The notes below the pieces were generated by a model. It was not told where the DNA came from. It searched no databases and was given only the letters and a program-made list of their open reading frames with translations. The position numbers and the translations under genes were made by a program. This document shows, piece after piece, positions 5,552-26,297 of a stretch of DNA of 28,241 nt; position 1 is the stretch's first letter; the number at the start of each line of letters is the position of its first letter. Source of the stretch: a virus; IMG/VR virus record IMGVR_UViG_3300025168_000482, positions 1-28,241 of that record; one strand, given 5' to 3'.

Positions 5552-6592
5552 ATGGCAAATAAAAAATTTAGTGAATTTACAGTAAAAACCTCGACTTCTG
5601 ATGTAGACTTCGTTGTAGGTTATGACGGAACAGACAATGTTAGAATAACACCAGCTAACTTAACCGGTGGTGGTGGTGCATCAAGTTTAAATGGTCTTAC
5701 TGATTGTTTAGTAGATACCAATAGTTTATATGTTGGAGAAGTACCAAGCGGCTTAAGTGGTAATCCTCAAGCAAATACTATACTAGGAATAGATGCTGGT
5801 AAAGATTTAACAACTGGAAATACAAATATTTTAGTAGGTGGTATAGCTGGTCAAAATATTACAACTGGAGCTGGTAATGTAGTTGTTGGATATGAGGCTG
5901 CAAACAACTTAACAAGTGGGCAAGATAATGTTTGTGTAGGTAAAGCAGCCTTTAGAAATACTACTATTGGATTTTTCAATACCGCTATAGGATATGATGC
6001 TTTAAGAGGTGGTGGTAATAAAAATCATAATACAGCAGTTGGGTTTGGTTCTGGAGCTGGAGTTACTACGGGTGCCGAAAATACTTTATTAGGGAGTCTA
6101 GCTGGGAATACTATTACTACTGGTGCAAATAATTTAGTAGTAGGTTATAACGCTCAAGCAACTTCAGTTACTGCTACAAACGAAATAACTTTAGGTAATT
6201 CAAGTATTTCAACTTTGCGTTGCTCTGTACAATCTATTACTTCTTTGTCGGATAAAAGAGATAAATCAGAAATAAAAAATTTAGAATATGGACTTGATTT
6301 TATTAGTAGTTTAAAACCAAGAGAATTTGTTTGGAATAATAGAGTTGAAACAATAACTACCACTGATGAGGAAGGTAAAGAAATTAAAGAAGAGTTTTAT
6401 TCTTCTAATAAAGGTAAAAAAGACTTTGGTTTTATAGCTCAAGAGGTTAAGGAGTTAGACAACGATACTTTAAGATTGGTTTATGACGAAAACCCAGAGA
6501 AATTAGAGTTAAGCTATGGGAAGTTGGTACCAATTTTAGTTAAAGCAATACAAGAGTTGAAAGCAGAGGTAGATTCACTAAAAAAAGTGTAA
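5552..6592 (+). CDS. Tail fibre/spike with C-terminal S74 self-cleaving chaperone
   Basis: This 346-residue protein has three parts. The N-terminus (1-45) begins MANKKFSEFTVKTSTSDVDF and probably attaches to the virion. The middle (about 70-215) is a series of degenerate repeats of the form TTGxxNxxVGxxAG, as in trimeric beta-roll or left-handed helix fibres. The C-terminus (about 225-346) is an intramolecular chaperone of the peptidase S74 family, with SLSDKRDKSEIKNLEYGLDF, FGFIAQEV and a final helix LVPILVKAIQELKAEV. The Ser233-Asp-x-Arg-x-Lys238 motif fits the self-cleavage site, so the mature fibre probably ends near residue 232. It acts in host surface binding. Neighbouring genes are also fibre-related. 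Confidence 0.88.
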   Translation: MANKKFSEFTVKTSTSDVDFVVGYDGTDNVRITPANLTGGGGASSLNGLTDCLVDTNSLYVGEVPSGLSGNPQANTILGIDAGKDLTTGNTNILVGGIAGQNITTGAGNVVVGYEAANNLTSGQDNVCVGKAAFRNTTIGFFNTAIGYDALRGGGNKNHNTAVGFGSGAGVTTGAENTLLGSLAGNTITTGANNLVVGYNAQATSVTATNEITLGNSSISTLRCSVQSITSLSDKRDKSEIKNLEYGLDFISSLKPREFVWNNRVETITTTDEEGKEIKEEFYSSNKGKKDFGFIAQEVKELDNDTLRLVYDENPEKLELSYGKLVPILVKAIQELKAEVDSLKKV

Positions 6593-6619
6593 ATACATCT
6601 ATAAAACAAAGAGTAAATT

Positions 6620-7783
6620 ATGCAAGACCCTATATTAGCTTTAATACCTAGTGGCTACAAAGCTCCTAAGCTTTACTCAATACTTCCTAGCAATGGGGGT
6701 GGGGATTTTACGTTAAATAGAGACACCGTAGGCACAAGAGTTCGAAAAGATGGGCTTTTAGAGACCCTTTCGGCTGATGTTCCGCGTTTAGATTGGTTAA
6801 ACAGTGATTGTCCTAACTTAATTTTAGAAACAGACAGAACTAACTTAACTACATATAACCAAGATTTAACAAACGCAGATTGGATTAAATCTAATAGCCC
6901 AACGGTTACAGCTAATCAAATTGTAAGCCCTACTGGAGAGTATAGCGCAGATAAAATTGTTTTTGGGACTGGCGTTTCATTAATTACAAATAATGCAACT
7001 GTTGTAAATAGCCAAAGTTATGCTTTATCAATTTATTTAAAAGGAGAAGAGGGCGGAGAGCAAGTGCAAATTGATTTTAAAAACAGCTCATCACAAGGCG
7101 TATCTGGAACTTTATTTACTCTTACTAATCAATGGCAAAGATATTCGGTTGTATTAACATCAAATCAAACATCTTTAGGGTTACAGTTAAGAACACCAAG
7201 CCTTACAGAAACTAAAACTATATACGCTTGGGGCGCTCAACTAGAATTAGGCGGTTATGTATCAAGCTGTATTAAAACAGAAGCTACTACGGTGACAAGG
7301 TTAAAAGATTCTATTATTACATCGTCTACTAGTTTATTTAATTCTAAAGAAAGTACATTTTTTGTTCAAATGGCTTCTTTTTTAAATACTCAAGCAAATA
7401 ATAACGGTATCGAATTGTCTGGTAATAGCGGTCAAGATAGAATTACTATACAATTTGATACTGCAAACAATCAAATAAGATGTGACGTTAGAGTGGCAAC
7501 CTCAGTTCAAGCAATAATAACAACTCAAAGTTTTGATGTTACTAATTTTAATAAAATAGCTATAACATATAAGTTTAATGAAGTTAAGTTTTATGTAAAC
7601 GGTCAACTAATTGGTACAGACACAAGTGTTAATTTATTTGCTCCAGGTGCTTTAACTCAAGTTAGAAGTACAATTGCGGATATAGCTAGCACACCATTTT
7701 TTTTACAAGCTAAAATAAAAGATTTAAGGGTTTACAACGAGGCTTTAACACAGTCCGAATCAATAAAACTTACAACAATATAA
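6620..7783 (+). CDS. Tail fibre/adhesin with lectin-like (LamG/concanavalin-type) domain
   Basis: This protein has 387 residues. The N-terminal 75 residues (YSILPSNGGGDFTLNRDTVG, RVRKDGLLETLS, CPNLILE) form a short motif common in fibre proteins of Bacteroidota phages. The central part (about 80-215) resembles a carbohydrate-binding beta-sandwich (SADKIVFG, YALSIYLKGEEGGEQVQIDF, WGAQLELGGYVSS). The C-terminal part (about 235-385) is a LamG-like fold (ESTFFVQMASFLN, FNKIAITYKFNEVKFYVNG, IKDLRVYNEALTQSE). It probably binds host surface glycans. There is no catalytic signature, and family calls are from motif pattern only. Confidence 0.75.
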   Translation: MQDPILALIPSGYKAPKLYSILPSNGGGDFTLNRDTVGTRVRKDGLLETLSADVPRLDWLNSDCPNLILETDRTNLTTYNQDLTNADWIKSNSPTVTANQIVSPTGEYSADKIVFGTGVSLITNNATVVNSQSYALSIYLKGEEGGEQVQIDFKNSSSQGVSGTLFTLTNQWQRYSVVLTSNQTSLGLQLRTPSLTETKTIYAWGAQLELGGYVSSCIKTEATTVTRLKDSIITSSTSLFNSKESTFFVQMASFLNTQANNNGIELSGNSGQDRITIQFDTANNQIRCDVRVATSVQAIITTQSFDVTNFNKIAITYKFNEVKFYVNGQLIGTDTSVNLFAPGALTQVRSTIADIASTPFFLQAKIKDLRVYNEALTQSESIKLTTI

Positions 7784-9749: not shown

Positions 9750-9778
9750 AACCTTCCAGAGATGGGGGGTTTTTTTTT
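9750..9778 (+). terminator. Rho-independent terminator after ninG
   Basis: The stem AACCTTCC (9750-9757) pairs with GGGGGGTT (9764-9771) over 8 bp, including two G-U pairs, around the loop AGAGAT. The T run extends to 9778. It separates ninG from the early promoter at 9787-9817. Confidence 0.8.
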
Positions 9779-10049: not shown

Positions 10050-10184
10050 ATGACATATTCAGAAGACGTAAATAGAATAGCAAGTAATGATACTATTGAT
10101 TTTTTAAATATGAGAATCAACGCACTAGAAGAAAGAATAGAATTTTTAGAAGCACAAAACGAAATTTTAAATAAACAACAATGA
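10050..10184 (+). CDS. 44-residue acidic coiled-coil microprotein
   Basis: This 44-residue frame starts at 10050, two bases after the preceding stop, and ends with an ATGA overlap with the next gene. The C-terminal half has heptad-spaced Leu/Ile (MRINALEERIEFLEAQNEIL), a clear short coiled coil, so it probably forms a dimer or binds a partner. Function unknown. Confidence 0.6.
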   Translation: MTYSEDVNRIASNDTIDFLNMRINALEERIEFLEAQNEILNKQQ

Positions 10185-10899: not shown

Positions 10900-10914
10900 T
10901 TTTTTTTTATAACT

Positions 10915-17894: not shown

Positions 17895-19103
17895 TTGATT
17901 GAAGTAAAAAAGAAATATCTGCCTATTGTTGAAACAGATAGTAGGTATTTTATAGTAAGCGGTGGGCGTGGTTCTGGGAAGTCATTTTCAGTAAACGCCC
18001 TTTTAGTTATGCTTACCTATGAGGCTGGGCATACTATCTTATTTACACGTTATACATTAACCTCAGCTTATATATCTATCATACCAGAGTTTATAGATAA
18101 GCTCGAACAGTTCGGCTCAATAGAACACTTCCACATTACTAAAGACGAGATACTAAACAAGAAGACTGGTAGCAAGATTATCTTTAGAGGGATAAAGACA
18201 TCAAGCGGAGACCAGACCGCAAACCTTAAATCTTTACAAGGTATTACCACTTGGGTAGTAGATGAAGCGGAAGAACTAACAGATGAGCAGAAGTTTGATA
18301 CAATAGACTTATCGGTTAGACAGAAAGGAAATAAGAACAGAGTTATACTAATACTAAACCCAACAACTAAAGAGCATTTTATTTATACTAGATTCTTTGA
18401 ATCTAAAGGAGTGCAAGAGGGTAGTAATACAACCAAAGATAATACTACCTATATACATACTACTTACATAGACAACATAGACAACTTATCTAAAAGCTAT
18501 ATAGACCAGATATCGCAGATGCGTGAACGTAGACCAGAGAAATACAAGCAACAGATGTTAGGTTCTTGGCTAAACAAAGCTGAGGGGGTTATATTTGATA
18601 ACTGGACCATAGGAGAATTTAAAAGAAGTAGTGTAAGTGTGTGGGGTCAAGATTACGGATTTGCCGCAGACCCTTCTACATTGGTTGAGTGTAATATAGA
18701 CACTAGCACTAAAACAATATATCTAAAAGAATGTTTCTACTTGCAAAGATTAACCACTACACAAATAGCTGAGCTTAATTTAAAGCACTCTAAAGGTGGT
18801 TTAATAATTGGAGACAGCGCAGAGCCAAGACTACTAAGCGAGATAAAAGCAAAGGGATGCAATGTAAAACCAAGCATAAAAGGACAAGGAAGTGTTACAT
18901 ACGGAATAAGCCTACTACAAGACTATGACTTAGTGGTAACTCCAGACAGCACAAACTTAATTAAAGAACTAAATAATTATAGTTGGCTAGAAAGAAAATC
19001 TAATACTCCAGTAGATAAATGGAATCACTTAATAGACGCTATTAGATACGCTGTAGGCTACCAGTTGCAAAACCCAAATAGAGGTAAGTATATTGTTCAC
19101 TAA
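17895..19103 (+). CDS. terL: Large terminase subunit (packaging ATPase and nuclease)
   Basis: This 402-residue motor pumps DNA into the prohead. The ATPase domain has Walker A GGRGSGKS (23-30), Walker B WVVDEAEEL (120-128) and the coupling segment LILNPTTKEHFIYTRFFE. The RNase H-fold nuclease domain has Asp253 in GQDYGFAADP, Asp307 in IIGDSAEP and Asp381 in NHLIDAIRYAVG. It is of the Terminase_3 (PBSX) type. No ATG exists before Walker A, so the start must be the TTG at 17895, three bases after the terS stop. Translation is probably coupled to terS. Confidence 0.93.
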   Translation: MIEVKKKYLPIVETDSRYFIVSGGRGSGKSFSVNALLVMLTYEAGHTILFTRYTLTSAYISIIPEFIDKLEQFGSIEHFHITKDEILNKKTGSKIIFRGIKTSSGDQTANLKSLQGITTWVVDEAEELTDEQKFDTIDLSVRQKGNKNRVILILNPTTKEHFIYTRFFESKGVQEGSNTTKDNTTYIHTTYIDNIDNLSKSYIDQISQMRERRPEKYKQQMLGSWLNKAEGVIFDNWTIGEFKRSSVSVWGQDYGFAADPSTLVECNIDTSTKTIYLKECFYLQRLTTTQIAELNLKHSKGGLIIGDSAEPRLLSEIKAKGCNVKPSIKGQGSVTYGISLLQDYDLVVTPDSTNLIKELNNYSWLERKSNTPVDKWNHLIDAIRYAVGYQLQNPNRGKYIVH

Positions 19104-19118
19104 AAAAAAGTAAAAACG

Positions 19119-19132
19119 TTTATATATTAATA
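19119..19132 (+). promoter_or_regulatory. Late promoter-like 14-mer, copy 4 (TTTATATATTAATA)
   Basis: Exact consensus in the 40-bp gap between terL and the tail unit. The ATG at 19144 is 12 bases downstream, with the A-rich spacer AGTAAAAGAAT. Confidence 0.6.
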
Positions 19133-19143
19133 AGTAAAAGAAT

Positions 19144-19791
19144 ATGAAAGTAAATCTTAGAATACCGACATCTTTAAATGAATTGTCTTTAAGTCAATAC
19201 CAAGAGTTTGCAAAACTAGAAGGTCAACAGCAAACAACTGCTATACAATTAAAAATGATTGAGATATTTTGTAACGTTCCAGAGGTTGTAGTTAGAAATA
19301 TGAAGGCTACTGATATTTCAGAAATATGCGAAATATTAAATAATATGTTTGATACCGAACACCAGCTTATTACTAGGTTTGATTATAATGGGGTTCAATA
19401 TGGCTTTATCCCAGATTTAGACGATATGAGTTTTGGAGAGTATATGGACTTAGACACTTTTATAGGGGATAACGAAAATATACATAGAGCTATGAATGTT
19501 TTATACAGACCTATAAAACTAAAAAAAGGAGATAGATATGTAATTGAAGATTATGATACAAACACAAGTGAAGATGCTAAAAACTTTCCACTTGATGCGG
19601 TTCTTGGTGCTATTGTTTTTTTTTACACTTTAGGCAAGGACTTGTCACTAGTTATGATGAGCTCTTTGGACTCCAAGAACGAGAAGGCTTTAGCACAACA
19701 TCTAATTTCACTGCAAAATACGGATGGTACAATTCCATCTATGGAATCGCTAACGGAGATATTACAAAATTTAAACATATCACTAAACTAA
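19144..19791 (+). CDS. Tail assembly chaperone, short (unshifted) form
   Basis: This 215-residue protein has the N-terminus of tail-unit openers in flavobacterial phages (LNELSLSQYQEFAKLEGQQQ, VPEVVVRNMKATDISEICEI), a middle with GVQYGFIPDLDDMSFGEYMD and RAMNVLYRPI, and a C-terminal part GAIVFFYTLGKDLSLVMMSS. The stop at 19789-19791 is followed by about 90 bases that are open only in the -1 frame, and a T9 run lies inside the gene, so I take it as the gpG-like product of a G/GT pair. Such chaperones coat the tape measure during tail assembly and are absent from the virion. Part of the sequence (19624-19791) encodes protein in two frames. Confidence 0.78.
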   Translation: MKVNLRIPTSLNELSLSQYQEFAKLEGQQQTTAIQLKMIEIFCNVPEVVVRNMKATDISEICEILNNMFDTEHQLITRFDYNGVQYGFIPDLDDMSFGEYMDLDTFIGDNENIHRAMNVLYRPIKLKKGDRYVIEDYDTNTSEDAKNFPLDAVLGAIVFFYTLGKDLSLVMMSSLDSKNEKALAQHLISLQNTDGTIPSMESLTEILQNLNISLN

Positions 19792-19880
19792 ATTTACACG
19801 AATGCTTAACCTATTTAGAATACACTAAAGAAAAAAACCAAATAGAAGCAGCACAAATAAAAAACAAATTCAATAGATAA
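19144..19880 (+). CDS. Tail assembly chaperone, long form made by -1 frameshift
   Basis: The predicted product has 245 residues: 160 from the 0 frame up to the T9 run, then 85 in the -1 frame ending with TAA at 19878-19880. The -1 frame is open from 19596, has no ATG, GTG or TTG start, and encodes plausible protein (AKYGWYNSIYGIANGDITKF, LHECLTYLEYTKEKNQIEAA). Its stop overlaps the next start (TAATG). This is the gpGT-like arrangement of tailed phages, in which a small fraction of ribosomes makes the longer form that contacts tail tube and tape measure. The shift site is inferred. Confidence 0.72.
19616..19624 (+). promoter_or_regulatory. Slippery site for programmed -1 frameshift (T9)
   Basis: In the 0 frame the run is read as GTT TTT TTT TAC, giving the ideal heptamer T TTT TTT at 19617-19623. 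Both frames are open on each side. No strong downstream pseudoknot was evident by eye. Confidence 0.65.
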
Positions 19881-20350
19881 TGAGCCAACAAGGAATAAGG
19901 GGATTTTACCAACTAACAGAAACGATTAAGACACAGCTCTTAAGCGATGTAAATGTTAACACTGTAACAACTGGCGATATTTTTGATATTGATTTATCTA
20001 AGCAAAGTATTTTCCCATTAAGTCATATTGTTATAAACTCTGTAACTACACAAGAGCAAGTATTATCTTTTAATATTACTGTAATGGCAATGGATATTGT
20101 TGATGAGAGCAAAGAAAAAACAGAAGATATATTCAGAGGCAACAACAACGAACAAGACGTGCTTAATACACAGTTAGCAGTATTAAACAAGTTGGTAATG
20201 GTATTGCGTAGGGGTACGCTTTATAGCGATAAGTTTCAACTAGAAGGGGATGCAACCTTAGAGCCTTTTTATGAGCGGTTTGATAATCGTTTAGCTGGGT
20301 TTGCTGCCACTATGGATATTGTAATACATAACGACATCAGTATATGCTAG
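19880..20350 (+). CDS. Tail terminator-like / tail completion protein
   Basis: This 156-residue alpha/beta protein has an N-terminal helix (GIRGFYQLTETIKTQLLSD), strands with HIVINSVTTQEQVLSFNITV and a long helix with DVLNTQLAVLNKLVMVLRRG, ending with AATMDIVIHNDI. This pattern resembles tail terminator proteins that cap the tube and join it to the head. It starts in a TAATG overlap with the long chaperone form. The function is inferred from fold pattern and from its position next to the gp10-like gene. Confidence 0.55.
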   Translation: MSQQGIRGFYQLTETIKTQLLSDVNVNTVTTGDIFDIDLSKQSIFPLSHIVINSVTTQEQVLSFNITVMAMDIVDESKEKTEDIFRGNNNEQDVLNTQLAVLNKLVMVLRRGTLYSDKFQLEGDATLEPFYERFDNRLAGFAATMDIVIHNDISIC

Positions 20351-20853
20351 CAGATAAGTATTTAAGGGATGAGTTAAACAAGTTTGCTAAGTATGTTATA
20401 CAACAATCACGAAGTAACTTAACTAAGGGCAAAAAGAACTCGTCTAAGGAACTTTATAACTCTTTAGACTATGATATAAGCCAGAGCAGTGGAACCACCT
20501 CTATGAGCTTTAATATGGCTGATTACGGAAAGTTTCAAGATAGGGGTGTAAGCGGTACTGAAAAAAAATATAATACACCTTACTCATACAAATCAAAGAT
20601 GCCGCCAGTCAAGGCTTTTGATAAATGGGTAGTAAGAAAAGGATTAGCGCCAAGAGGTAAGGGCGGTAAGTTTGCATCAAGAGAAGGAATAAAATTTGCT
20701 ATTGCTAAGTCTATTTATAAAAAAGGAATAAGGCCAAGTATGTTTTTTACTAAGCCATTTGAAGCAGCTTTTAAAAGGCTGCCAGATGAATTATTAGAAG
20801 CTTACTCAATAGGATTAGAAAAACAGATACAAGTAAACATAAATAAGAAATGA
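20344..20853 (+). CDS. HK97 gp10-like neck/tail protein
   Basis: This 169-residue basic protein has helices (YLRDELNKFAKYVIQQSRSN, SKELYNSLDYDIS), a central strand pair (TTSMSFNMADYGKFQDRG), a flexible basic section, and a C-terminal RPSMFFTKPFEAAFKRLPDE. The sequence MADYGKFQDRG followed later by a conserved F/P-rich helix is typical of HK97 gp10-like proteins of the neck. Overlaps of seven and four bases with its neighbours place it firmly in the tail operon. Confidence 0.65.
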   Translation: MLADKYLRDELNKFAKYVIQQSRSNLTKGKKNSSKELYNSLDYDISQSSGTTSMSFNMADYGKFQDRGVSGTEKKYNTPYSYKSKMPPVKAFDKWVVRKGLAPRGKGGKFASREGIKFAIAKSIYKKGIRPSMFFTKPFEAAFKRLPDELLEAYSIGLEKQIQVNINKK

Positions 20854-21968
20854 GCAAGATTAATGTAAGAAGTCCGTACTATATAAGCAATGGGGTTGTA
20901 ACTGGGTTAAACAGTACACTTATAGAAATATACATTTATACGGGTACACAAAATAGCAGACCCCCAGCACCAACTTATAATCTAAGTGGTTTTGCAATTA
21001 ATAATCAAGTTACATTTGAGATATCAGAACTTGTTAAGGATTATATATCCCAAACATTTAGCGGAGCTTATTCAACCGAAATTCTGTGGGTAGATTTTGC
21101 AACTATTGAAACAATAAATGGGGTTGCTCAAAGGAGAAGCGCTTTAACCAACTTAAAAGGCTTTAACGGTTACGGTTATTTTGAAGACGCAGCAAACCCT
21201 CAAAACAATACAGCTCTTTTACAATCAAATACTAGTATTGTAAAATTAGACGATGCTCCAGCAGTAATAGCAGTAGACACTTCACTAGCAACTCGAGTGA
21301 CCTATGAGTTAAACGGAGAGCAAGTTTACACTAAAGCAATAAGCACAAGCACAAATAGTAATGCGCAAATAGAATATGTTACAAGCGGTGTTAATGGTTC
21401 AGATGAATTTAAAGACAGAGTTATACAAGACGGCGGTATTTTTGAGGGCAGCGACTGTTTGACTCAGTTTGCAAATGAATTTACTTTATTTGACTTTGAT
21501 ACTATTTATATAGATAGTTCACAAGGGGTTACAAAGTTAAATGTAAAAAGTGAAAGCGAATGCAAATACACACCATACAAAGTAACGTTTATAAATAAAT
21601 ATGGTACACTTCAAGACGTATGGTTTTTTAAAAGAAGTAATAAAACACTGTCAACTAAAAAAGAGTCTTTTAAAAGGAATACAGTAACTGGTATAAGTTA
21701 CTCAATAAACAAACACCAAGACACTATTTTAACAAATCAAGGCAGCGAAAAGTTAACCTTAAACACTGGCTACTACCCAGAGTCTTATAATGAAGTATTT
21801 AAGCAAATGGAACTTAGCGAAGAATGCTGGATAGAAATAGACTCCAAGTCTTTACCTATAAACATAAGTTCAAGCAGCCTAGCGTTTAAAACACAATTAA
21901 ACGACAAAATAATAAATTACACTATTGATGTTGAGTTTGCAAACAACACAATTAACGATATAAGATAG
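20850..21968 (+). CDS. Baseplate/tail tip structural protein 1
   Basis: This 372-residue beta-rich protein begins INVRSPYYISNGVVTGLNST, which suggests a beta-barrel start, with later motifs FEISELVKDYISQTFSG, CKYTPYKVTFINKYGTLQDV followed by WFFKRSNKT, and a C-terminal NDKIINYTIDVEFANNT. Proteins of this type precede the large tip protein in flavobacterial phages and probably form part of the distal tail or hub. No enzymatic motif. It overlaps the previous gene by four bases, and its stop directly abuts the next start. Confidence 0.62.
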   Translation: MSKINVRSPYYISNGVVTGLNSTLIEIYIYTGTQNSRPPAPTYNLSGFAINNQVTFEISELVKDYISQTFSGAYSTEILWVDFATIETINGVAQRRSALTNLKGFNGYGYFEDAANPQNNTALLQSNTSIVKLDDAPAVIAVDTSLATRVTYELNGEQVYTKAISTSTNSNAQIEYVTSGVNGSDEFKDRVIQDGGIFEGSDCLTQFANEFTLFDFDTIYIDSSQGVTKLNVKSESECKYTPYKVTFINKYGTLQDVWFFKRSNKTLSTKKESFKRNTVTGISYSINKHQDTILTNQGSEKLTLNTGYYPESYNEVFKQMELSEECWIEIDSKSLPINISSSSLAFKTQLNDKIINYTIDVEFANNTINDIR

Positions 21969-24431
21969 ATGCAAATAATTGAGTTATACATCCGTAGTCA
22001 ATCCCTTACGAGTGGGACAGCAAGTTCAACAGTTTCAAACAAACTTGTTAACTCCTCTGCTTCTTTTATTGGTACTGTTTCAATTGGGGATGTAATAGAA
22101 AACATATCTAATAATACAACAGCTAAAGTAACAGCGGTAGACTCAAACACTCAATTGACTTTAGATAATAATATAATGTTTGCTTTAAATACTTACGCAG
22201 TTTTTAGTGAGTATGTTAAAATGGATTTGTTTAAAGATGAAAGTTTGAGCATTTCTGACAGCATACAAGATGTTCGGGATATATCAAAAATATTTACTAC
22301 ATTTTCTCAGCAGTTTAATTTACCAGCTTCTAAAAAAAATAATAAGTTTTTTAAACATTACCAGGATTCTGATGTTTTAAACAGTTTTGACGCAAGGTTT
22401 AAAACAGATGCAATTATAAAGTTAAACGGAATTGATTTTAGAAAAGGCAAAATAAGACTAAACGCTGTTGATTTAAAAGATAATAAAGCCTACTCTTACA
22501 AAGTAGTTTTCTTTGGGGATGTAATAGAACTTAAGGACTTGATGCAAGACGATGACTTAAGCTCCCTATCTATTGACCCTAGCTTAAATTTTACTTACGA
22601 CAATGCAACTGTTTTATCTAAGTTTCAAAGCTCTATTGATTTAGATGTAGCGTTTCCACTTATAACGCACAGTAAACACTTCAATATACACACTAATAAT
22701 AAATATCAAAGCGGTTCTGATAAGGTTATTTATACGGATTTAAAACCAGCTTTAAAAGTTCGTAAGATTATAGATGCTATTGAGTCTAAATATAATATTA
22801 CTTTTAGCAATGACTTTTTTAATAATACAAATTTTAGAAGCCTTTATTTATTATTACATAGGGCTTCGGGTGCTGTTAGTAATGCTTTGCCGTCGGGTGG
22901 AATTTTTACAGTAACAAATAGCTTTAATGACGATTTAACACTTTCATCCACAACCCCAGATGATGAGGTTCGACCGTTTAACTCAACTAATTATTATAGT
23001 TTTGATTATACAATAACACTTTCAGCACCGACAGAGGTAATAGTAAGGATAACTAGCGCAAGTGGTACGCTTTACGCCCAAGCAACGTTTAATACAGCTG
23101 GCAGCCATACTTTAAGTTTTAATTTTGGAGGAGTCTTTAATTCAAACCCTAGCGCGCCAACAGATGTTTTGTTTACTGTTGAATCTGAAAACACCTTAAC
23201 TATTGGTGCGCAATCTTTATCGGTTTCTACATACACACCAACCCCAGGAGGCGGCGGAGTGGGGTTTTTAGACGCTGTTTATGATTTTCCAGCTTCAACT
23301 TTACAAAACACTTTTGTAATTAATAGGCAATTACCACAAATAAAAGTTATTGACTTTTTAACATCTTTATTTAAAGCATATAACTTAACAGCTTATAAAG
23401 AAAATGGTATTATTGTAGTTAAGTCTTTACAAGATTTTTATAATTCTGGTATCAGTTATGATATTACCGAATATGTAGAAGTCGATAAATCAAACATAAG
23501 TAAACTGTTACAATTTAAAGAAATTGATTTTAAATTTAAAAGTAAAGAATATTTTTTAGTTCAAGCCTCTGACCTTATACAAGATGATAATTTCGGAAAC
23601 TTATCGTATGGAAATAAACAATTTGATGGAGAAAACTATGAAATAGAAATAGACTTTGAGAAAATAATGTACGAGAGGTTAAAGGATGGGTCAGTTTTTA
23701 CAAATATGACTCAAGGCTCATTGCTAGACAGTAACTTAGAGCCGACAATTGGCGCTCCTTTATTATTGTACTGTATAAACACAAATCCAAACGGTGTATT
23801 GGTTTGGGGCGGTACTGGAACCCCAACACTAACCAATTACAAAAGACCTTCTAATTTAAATTCTAGCGGAAACGACTCTTTAAATTTTGGTACTGAAATG
23901 GATGAAACGACTTTAGCTAGTGTAACAAATTCACTGTTTCAAAATAACTATATAGACTACATATCAAATATTTATGACTCACAAGCTAGAAAACTAAAAG
24001 TAACCGCGTATTTACCGTTAAGAATACTGCTTAATTATAATCTTAACGACACTTTTGTAATAGCAAATAAAAGCTATAGAATAAACACTATAAAAACAAA
24101 CCTATTAACAAATAAAACAGACTTAGAACTGTTTAATGTTTTTACAAGTTTAGAGAATTTAGGCAAAAATATAAATGAGTCATTGCCTAGAGTGGTTGAT
24201 TTTGAAACAAGCGCAATAAGTTCAACAACAGTTAACAAAAACTGGACTGCTTTAAGCGGTGCAACTAAATATTTGCTTTTTAAAGATAATCAATTAATAA
24301 ACAGTCAAACCGCTACATCATATCAATACACTGGTTTAGAATCTGGTGTTACTTATAAATTAAGTGTTCAAGTAGAATATGGCACAGATAATTTTAGCGG
24401 TTTTACAGATAGTACAGAAACAACAACTTAA
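21969..24431 (+). CDS. Large tail tip/baseplate protein with C-terminal fibronectin III domain
   Basis: This 820-residue protein is the largest in the genome. The first 75 residues (TSGTASSTVSNKLVNSSASF, VTAVDSNTQLTLDNNIMF) form a beta domain that looks added to the common core, which begins about residue 85 (DLFKDESLSISDSIQDVRDI, FSQQFNLPASKKNNKFFKHY). The core includes a Gly/Pro-rich beta section near 425 and a region with IKVIDFLTSLFKAYNLTAYK. The last 85 residues (about 735-820) are a fibronectin III domain (KNWTALSGATKYLLFKDNQL, YTGLESGVTYKLSVQVEYG). It probably forms the tail tip that contacts the cell. Confidence 0.68.
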   Translation: MQIIELYIRSQSLTSGTASSTVSNKLVNSSASFIGTVSIGDVIENISNNTTAKVTAVDSNTQLTLDNNIMFALNTYAVFSEYVKMDLFKDESLSISDSIQDVRDISKIFTTFSQQFNLPASKKNNKFFKHYQDSDVLNSFDARFKTDAIIKLNGIDFRKGKIRLNAVDLKDNKAYSYKVVFFGDVIELKDLMQDDDLSSLSIDPSLNFTYDNATVLSKFQSSIDLDVAFPLITHSKHFNIHTNNKYQSGSDKVIYTDLKPALKVRKIIDAIESKYNITFSNDFFNNTNFRSLYLLLHRASGAVSNALPSGGIFTVTNSFNDDLTLSSTTPDDEVRPFNSTNYYSFDYTITLSAPTEVIVRITSASGTLYAQATFNTAGSHTLSFNFGGVFNSNPSAPTDVLFTVESENTLTIGAQSLSVSTYTPTPGGGGVGFLDAVYDFPASTLQNTFVINRQLPQIKVIDFLTSLFKAYNLTAYKENGIIVVKSLQDFYNSGISYDITEYVEVDKSNISKLLQFKEIDFKFKSKEYFLVQASDLIQDDNFGNLSYGNKQFDGENYEIEIDFEKIMYERLKDGSVFTNMTQGSLLDSNLEPTIGAPLLLYCINTNPNGVLVWGGTGTPTLTNYKRPSNLNSSGNDSLNFGTEMDETTLASVTNSLFQNNYIDYISNIYDSQARKLKVTAYLPLRILLNYNLNDTFVIANKSYRINTIKTNLLTNKTDLELFNVFTSLENLGKNINESLPRVVDFETSAISSTTVNKNWTALSGATKYLLFKDNQLINSQTATSYQYTGLESGVTYKLSVQVEYGTDNFSGFTDSTETTT

Positions 24432-24441
24432 TGTTAGAGTA

Positions 24442-24582
24442 ATGATAAAATTAATATTAGAGGGTTTAAAATATGTAAACGGAGAAACTGAGGCTATCCG
24501 TATAGCAAAAGGAAAACATAAACTACCTACAACACTAAAAGAGGGTTACAAAGCACTTAAACAAGAGATACAATGGCGATAG
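24442..24582 (+). CDS. 46-residue microprotein before the tape measure
   Basis: This protein has 46 residues from ATG 24442. An in-frame ATG at 24379 would lie inside the tip protein gene and encode an unlikely N-terminus. It is basic, with LILEGLKYVNGETEAIRIAK and a helix ending ALKQEIQWR. It overlaps the tape measure start by ten bases. It occupies the slot between tip and tape measure, so a small tail component is possible. No family recognised. Confidence 0.5.
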   Translation: MIKLILEGLKYVNGETEAIRIAKGKHKLPTTLKEGYKALKQEIQWR

Positions 24583-26297
24583 AAAAAACAATTAATATAG
24601 ACGTAGAAAGTAAAGAGGCCTTAGCTGGTATTAAGTCTATAGATAGTGGTTTAACCGGTCTTGATAAAAGTGCTGGAACTGCAAGTAAGGGCGTTGGTGG
24701 AATATCAAAGGCTTTTAAAAGTCTCGGAACTGCTATGAAGGCAGCTGGTATTGGTTTAGTCATTGGTGCCTTAGCTAAGCTGTCAGAAATTTTTATGCAA
24801 AACCAAAAGGTTGCTGACGGCTTTAATACAGTTATGGAAGCTCTTAGTATTGCTTTCAATGATTTTGTAGGTTTTATTGTTAATAATACAAGCGGAGTAG
24901 TAGATTTTTTTAAGGCTATTTTTGAAGACCCCAAGCAATCGCTGATTGATTTTGCAGATGCTTTTAAAAGAAATATACAAGAAAGATTTGAAAGCTATCT
25001 AGATACGCTAGGTTTTTTAGCAAGTGCAGTAAAAAAAGTATTTAGTGGAGATTTTAAAGGTGCTTTAGAAGATGTTAAAAACGCTGGTAAAGAAAGTATA
25101 GACGTTTTAACTGGAGTTAATAATACTTTTGACAAGGCTACTGAGTTTGTGGGCGAAGCAACTGATGCTGTAAAGAATTATGCAACAGAAACATTTAAGG
25201 CTGCTTCTAAAAATGTAAAGCTAGCAAAGGCAGCAGAGTTAGCGGCGGTTAAAAATCAAGGTTTAATTGAGAAGTTTGATAGACAAGCAGAGCAACTAAG
25301 ACAGATAAGAGATGACGAAAGTAAGAGCATAGAAGAACGCATAAAAGCTAACGAAGATTTAGCAAAGGTTTTAGATGAGCAAGAAAAAGCAATGAAAGAA
25401 AATGCAGCTATTCAAGTTGCTGCTGCTGGTGCGGAACTGTCTAAAAATAAAGAAAATATAGAACTGCAAAAAGCCTACGCAGAAGCCCTAAACGAACAAG
25501 CAGCTATTGAAGCGCAAATAACTGGTTTTAGAAGTGAACAGCAAACTAATACAAACTCTTTACTTAGAGAGCAAAAAGATATACAAAACGAACTTGCTTT
25601 AATTGGTAAAAGTGAAAGAGATGTACTACGAGAAGAATTACAGCAACAATACTTAGAACAAAAAGAATTAATAGATAGACAAGTAACAGATGAAGAGCAA
25701 AAGAACGAACTACTACTTATTGCTGCAAATGACTTTCAAACTAAATTAAAAGAATTAAACGCTGGTTTTGATGCAGAAGATTTAGCAAACACAGAAGCTA
25801 ATGCCGCTGCTAAAAAGAAGATTGATGATGCTACTAAAAACGCACAGTTAGACAATGCAGAAGCTGTTGGTTCAGCGATTGGTACTTTAGCTGGTATAGC
25901 TGGAGAGGGTACTGCTGCTGGTAAGGCTTTAGGGGTTGCCTCAGCCACTATTGATACTTATGTAGGTGCAAACAAAGCAATTGCACAAGGCGGTATTGCT
26001 GGTATTGCTTCTGCTGTTGCTATAATTGCTACTGGTTTAACTAACGTAAAAACAATTTTAAGCACTAAAATACCTAGCTCTAATATTGGAGGTGCAAGTA
26101 CTGGGGGCGGCGGAGGTGGTGGCTCAGCCCCACAAGCGCCAGCATTTAATATAGTGGGCGCAAGTGATACAAACCAATTAGCTGAGGTAATAGGTGGGCA
26201 GACACAACAACCAGTCCAGGCTTTTGTAGTGTCAAATGATGTAACAACCGCCCAAAGTTTACAAAACAATATTGTTGAGGGCGCAACGATTGGGTAA
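24573..26297 (+). CDS. Tape measure protein
   Basis: This 574-residue protein spans the tail lumen and sets tail length. The N-terminus has INIDVESKEALAGIKSIDSG and a Gly/Ala/Lys-rich helix with a hydrophobic patch (AAGIGLVIGALAKL, about 58-71). Residues about 210-400 are long Glu/Gln/Lys coiled coil (EEQKNELLLIAANDFQTKLK). The C-terminal part is Ala/Gly-rich (GIASAVAIIATGLTNV) with a poly-Gly stretch near 510. Using about 1.5 Angstrom per residue the tail would be short, under 100 nm. It lies downstream of the tip proteins, the reverse of the common order. Confidence 0.8.
   Translation: MAIEKTINIDVESKEALAGIKSIDSGLTGLDKSAGTASKGVGGISKAFKSLGTAMKAAGIGLVIGALAKLSEIFMQNQKVADGFNTVMEALSIAFNDFVGFIVNNTSGVVDFFKAIFEDPKQSLIDFADAFKRNIQERFESYLDTLGFLASAVKKVFSGDFKGALEDVKNAGKESIDVLTGVNNTFDKATEFVGEATDAVKNYATETFKAASKNVKLAKAAELAAVKNQGLIEKFDRQAEQLRQIRDDESKSIEERIKANEDLAKVLDEQEKAMKENAAIQVAAAGAELSKNKENIELQKAYAEALNEQAAIEAQITGFRSEQQTNTNSLLREQKDIQNELALIGKSERDVLREELQQQYLEQKELIDRQVTDEEQKNELLLIAANDFQTKLKELNAGFDAEDLANTEANAAAKKKIDDATKNAQLDNAEAVGSAIGTLAGIAGEGTAAGKALGVASATIDTYVGANKAIAQGGIAGIASAVAIIATGLTNVKTILSTKIPSSNIGGASTGGGGGGGSAPQAPAFNIVGASDTNQLAEVIGGQTQQPVQAFVVSNDVTTAQSLQNNIVEGATIG

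Follow-up and report, generated by a model that had tools for sequence, protein, structure and literature searches.

A probable programmed -1 frameshift with a long dual-coded segment in a putative tail chaperone gene pair of flavobacterial phages

In the virus record studied here, referred to as the window (28,241 bases), a small gene ends at position 19791, and a second frame, displaced by -1, is open from 19596 to 19880 (95 codons) and runs through the end of the first. The question raised by this locus is whether the second frame is read as an extension of the first, and whether both frames of the shared segment are in use. Frameshifted tail chaperones are common. Very likely, a programmed -1 frameshift gives here, from one start, a G-like protein of 215 aa and, at a lower level, a GT-like fusion of 245 aa, and the two would probably act as a tail chaperone pair. 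The kind of system is already known, and this variant of it is unannotated. The family of flavobacterial phages in which it occurs is large and for the most part unannotated; in most of its lineages 140-254 nt are dual-coded, and selection is measurable in both frames.

Layout of the two reading frames

The features of the locus, and the gene downstream that bears on its function, are as follows.

19144..19791, + strand: 0-frame gene for a G-like protein of 215 aa (open reading frame; hundreds of viral-contig homologues; AF2 model)
19616..19624, + strand: run of nine T (T9) with the slippery heptamer T TTT TTT at 19617-19623 (sequence; T9 or T10 in 195/195 relatives)
19623..19880, + strand: -1 extension, a T-like domain of 85 aa with its stop TAA at 19878-19880 (open frame; conserved motif)
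19624..19791, + strand: dual-coded segment of 168 nt, in which the 0-frame tail (55 codons and its stop) coincides with the first part of the -1 domain (constraint in both frames)
19880..20350, + strand: next gene, 156 aa (list of open reading frames)
24573..26297, + strand: tape-measure-like gene (PHROG tape-measure matches, best E 5e-13)

A preliminary description of this stretch had given the end of the 0 frame, the limits of the open -1 frame, and a TAATG overlap with the next gene, and every coordinate was verified; in TAATG, the final A of the -1 stop is the first base of the ATG of the next gene (19880). It had also held that the -1 frame lacks any usual start codon, and indeed no ATG, GTG, or TTG is present in any of its 95 codons in the window. 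The heptamer lies in the shared part as described, in-frame and within the T9 run. The estimate of about 168 bases coding for two proteins agrees with the segment listed above, in which constraint was found in both frames, and the expected product of 245 residues has the computed length of the fusion, which is predicted to join the first 160 residues of the 0 frame to the 85-aa -1 domain. This domain carries the conserved motif KWGWY...DI..F..ITKL..H.CL. Two more T9 runs are present in the window, at 9770-9778 and 10900-10908, apparently outside the listed open reading frames.

The second open frame is more than a product of chance. When codons were redrawn by usage with the 0-frame protein held fixed, the -1 frame stayed open across the overlap in 0-3.5% of redraws, depending on the sequence. 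With the -1 protein held fixed, the 0 frame extended at least as far as the observed stop in 0-0.95%.

The slip site and the change of frame

In viral contigs, relatives number in the hundreds. Among 195 distinct homologous loci, the run at these codons is T9 in 171 and T10 in 24, with no shorter or longer run, and the downstream domain lies in the -1 frame in every one. Further distant loci, including the isolated Nonlabens phage P12024L, show the same arrangement. Neither a lack of conservation of the -1 frame nor an independent start within it, the two findings which the preliminary description named as speaking against a frameshift, was encountered: the frame is conserved in every readable relative, and none of the 195 loci has an ATG from the point where the -1 frame opens up to the run.

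As judged from its wobble positions, the heptamer is conserved beyond the need of the amino acids. All three of these positions are invariant in 85 sequences, compared with about ten substitutions at an upstream wobble site. Both Phe codons of the site are always TTT (75% TTT elsewhere), and the Val, Ile, or Leu codon before the site always ends in T, whereas two-thirds of the Val and Ile codons elsewhere in the gene have A as their last base. The codon sets which form the run differ between loci (VFFY, LFFY, IFFL, VFFF, SFFF, FFFW, and others), and its length is constant at nine or ten. In four loci (L210, L259, L262, and L283), the residue after the Phe codons has no T-starting codon, and a third TTT codon holds the run at 9-10.

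No stimulatory RNA structure was found downstream of the site in windows of 60 and 90 nt, where the mean folding z is near 0; therefore, no pseudoknot or hairpin stimulator is proposed. A Shine-Dalgarno-like stimulator was also considered and is not favoured: the Gly codon four codons upstream is free at its wobble base, and the upstream wobble positions evolve about as they do elsewhere. As a slip site in E. coli, U_UUU_UUU is weaker than A_AAA_AAG (PMC5009743), which, like the missing structure, counts against a programmed ribosomal shift.

The proposed scheme can be described as follows. Ribosomes on GTT TTT TTT TAC would slip one base back at T TTT TTT, probably without a strong stimulator, and continue reading into the T-like domain. 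Normal decoding would give the 215-aa protein, and the 245-aa fusion would be the product of lower level. The G-like protein may coat the tape measure protein, the T domain may recruit the tail tube protein, and the ratio of G to GT would be set by the rate of slipping. The 0-frame tail past the slip would be a second selected segment, probably overprinted on an older -1 domain.

Alternatively, RNA polymerase may slip on the T9 run and add a U to some transcripts, in which case ordinary translation would give the same V-F-F-L fusion, and a ribosomal shift would be unneeded or secondary. This is unlikely as the whole explanation, and polymerase slippage is a live rival or helper in the clade with T runs. 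The run is nine or ten in the 195 loci and never seven or eight, though a ribosomal heptamer requires only seven, and the extra TTT codon of the four loci above appears to be in keeping with a requirement for length. Runs of A or T are prone to slippage from nine upwards in many bacteria (PMC1088944). The absence of a stimulatory structure, used elsewhere as an argument for polymerase slippage (PMC4256274), points the same way, as does the scarcity of T9 elsewhere in the contigs of the family (78 runs in 80 loci, about one each). However, the bases which extend the run from T7 to T9 are non-wobble positions in conserved hydrophobic or aromatic codons, so that protein constraint can explain much of the length, and chaperones of the P2 type shift at the T-rich TTTTTTG without a structure (PMC3091744).

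Evidence for a ribosomal shift comes from the seven loci L426-L432, a sister clade with 58-100% identity to L413, in which A_AAT_TTT stands at the same position and the -1 domain is intact. This is a valid X_XXY_YYZ heptamer and the only heptamer in the overlap of these loci, which is about 240 nt long (L413:1501-2222, L426-L432). A homopolymer of at least about nine is present at the frame transition in the T clade and absent from this one, where no homopolymer reaches 6 and the polymerase should not slip; nevertheless, the gene pair and its -1 frame are kept. Since A_AAT_TTT is the substitution expected of a ribosomal site, ribosomal frameshifting is favoured over polymerase slippage. With T9 in some members of the family and A_AAT_TTT in others at a single position, the two kinds of slippage, ribosomal and polymerase, can readily be tested against each other. 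A combined reading, that T9 or T10 serves both kinds of slippage in most of the family, with the length for this reason never falling below nine, and that the 0-frame tail (up to 254 nt) has a separate function in the short chaperone only, has a small chance of being correct.

The two frames of the overlap

The length of the overlap depends on the lineage and ranges from 22 to 254 nt, 168 nt being the value for the lineage of the window. Measured after the run, the 0-frame overlap is 164-173 nt in all measurable loci but four, which have 22 nt (L197), 77 nt (P12024L), 185 nt (L215), and 188 nt (L219). More distant searches added lineages with overlaps of 50 nt (the 0-frame tail of L312), 140-146, 161-176, 185-197, and 239-254 nt; in the lineage with the longest overlap, nearly the whole -1 domain is covered by the 0 frame. 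With this natural series of lengths from 22 nt upwards, the family is well suited to work on the origin and shortening of overprinted segments.

For the substitution rates, changes among 85 distinct sequences were placed on their tree by parsimony, and the opportunities for each class of change were counted. Within the overlap, changes silent in frame 0 only, which alter the -1 protein, occur at a rate of 0.150 (95% CI 0.106-0.199), and those silent in the -1 frame only, which alter the 0-frame protein, at 0.161 (0.115-0.215), against silent rates in single-coded DNA of 0.486 (0.431-0.548) upstream and 0.356 (0.255-0.465) downstream. Taking sites as independent under parsimony is a crude method, and RNA-level constraint on the overlap lies outside the model; the differences are still at least two-fold. 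When other clades were compared with their own upstream silent rate, the depression was clear for the 185-nt and 254-nt overlaps, and a set with a 194-nt overlap showed the same pattern with only 8 sequences. The comparison of the two frames across homologues which the preliminary description had called for therefore gave codon-level constraint in the clade of the window and in two more, with a small third alike. As far as substitution rates can tell, purifying selection acts on both frames of the overlap.

It is rather improbable that only one frame of the overlap is real, with the 0-frame tail a passive side effect of conservation in the -1 domain, or vice versa. The -1 domain is more widely conserved than the 0-frame tail, short tails exist in P12024L, L312, and L197, and in its codon usage the overlap is slightly nearer the norm of the gene in the -1 frame, all of which would suit a passive tail. 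However, the rate of changes silent in the -1 frame that alter the 0 frame is below half of that for silent changes in the adjacent single-coded -1 DNA, and the other tested clades show a like depression against their upstream silent rate. Moreover, a 0 frame reaching to the observed stop, obtained in fewer than 1% of redraws given the -1 protein, is present in nearly all relatives.

With selection on both frames, it may be asked which of the two is older. All lineages have the -1 domain, whereas the 0-frame tail varies in length; together with the codon usage mentioned above, this is a weak indication that the 0-frame tail is the younger of the two and was added by overprinting. In L197 (a single contig; L197:1136-1869), the 0 frame ends 22 nt past the run and the -1 domain is intact. 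Therefore, the tail can be lost and is not strictly required everywhere.

A separate origin of the T domain by internal initiation is very improbable. The second frame of P12024L is annotated as a 55-aa gene of its own, starting at an internal ATG; conservation of the -1 frame, however, begins at the slip site, upstream of this ATG. None of the 195 loci has an ATG in the -1 frame before the run, and in 63 of 190 loci, the window among them, the -1 open reading frame holds no ATG, GTG, or TTG at all. An assembly error, a pseudogene, or DNA-level phase variation at the homopolymer can practically be dismissed since, although long T runs are mutable and error-prone, the out-of-frame relation is kept in 195/195 loci and no in-frame fused version of the gene pair was found among them.

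Protein identity, known systems, and hosts

The preliminary description named the gene product a tail assembly chaperone. This role is likely: the G/GT-like architecture and weak matches to tail proteins agree with the name, whereas no curated family and no solved fold do. The assignment therefore rests on that architecture, on the weak profile matches, and on the tape-measure-like gene downstream. As in G/GT, a short product and a frameshift-extended product are predicted from one start on the comparative evidence.

Neither protein has a match in Pfam or NCBIfam. The AF2 model of the 0-frame protein (pLDDT 78.5) can be trusted up to about residue 170, and its helix 150-174 contains the slip position; the model of the -1 domain is poor (pLDDT 56.5). 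No solved structure matched the 0-frame model significantly in Foldseek or in a second look with VIA-align, and the sequence search against solved structures gave one match, at chance level. Weak matches to phrog_166 (‘tail protein’) were obtained in 9 of 13 members (best E 3e-4). In the predicted structures of BFVD, there was a weak match (E 0.035) to an annotated tail assembly chaperone, R9VW65, which from its length of 191 aa is presumably gp10 of Flavobacterium phage 6H.

In phage 6H (L221:10047-10927), about 300 bases without annotation come after gp10 (191 aa), and other frames are open over long distances there; this may be a frameshift extension that went unrecognised or an error in the sequence. 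Its frames look more complicated, and gp10 of phage 6H was left out of the evidence.

Among known systems, lambda G/GT is alike in having one start, a -1 frameshift late in a small gene, and a C-terminal extension that ends at the next gene. Its overlap, however, amounts to about 18 nt, from the annotated start of T at 10115 to the end of G at 10133, compared with 168 nt here, and its tape measure gene follows at once, whereas four genes precede the tape-measure-like gene in the window. No curated-family match to the lambda-type chaperones was found. E/E+E' of phage P2 also shifts by -1; its heptamer, TTTTTTG, is T-rich, and no RNA structure is reported for it (PMC3091744). There the overlap is 20 nt, from the annotated shift at 19685 to the end of E at 19705, and the tape measure gene is adjacent. 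The proposal that the overlap is much longer than usual for G/GT thus holds against these two classic phages, to which the comparison of lengths was confined, and no record is claimed for 168 or 254 nt. Genes with transcriptional slippage, such as Thermus dnaX and those of IS elements, likewise have a run of nine inside a conserved frame transition (PMC1088944), but the present family includes a sister clade in which A_AAT_TTT stands without a homopolymer.

The closest true homologue in an isolate is gp40/gp41 of Nonlabens phage P12024L (phrog_32199 and phrog_38404; L220:2501-3195, JQ823123.1). Its 0-frame protein is 31% identical, the T9 run is in the same place, the -1 domain contains KWGWY, and the overlap after the run is 77 nt. 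They are annotated as two separate hypothetical genes; gp40 and gp41 have the appearance of a single frameshifted pair that carries a T9 site, and annotation of isolates of this kind would split one programmed gene in two. No published description of the frameshift of this family was found in searches of the openly accessible literature.

Phage P12024L infects Persicivirga (Nonlabens). Four relatives lie within assemblies of bacteria; the label is Winogradskyella or Flavobacteriaceae for three and Bacteroidetes for the fourth. From this host and these labels, the hosts of the family are probably marine Flavobacteriia, and we infer the same for the host of the window itself.

The large terminase gene lies directly upstream of the chaperone-like gene, and four genes separate the latter from the tape-measure-like gene, which is on the same strand. 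Chaperone genes of the G/GT type stand between those for the major tail protein and the tape measure; the position next to the terminase counts against this role, and no major tail protein was recognised in the neighbourhood. This order (17895-26297), large terminase, chaperone-like gene, four genes, and tape-measure-like gene, is unusual. Elsewhere in the window, positions 5552-7783 encode a protein with Peptidase_S74 (endosialidase chaperone) and one with a laminin-G-like lectin domain, which are probably tail fibre or receptor-binding genes.
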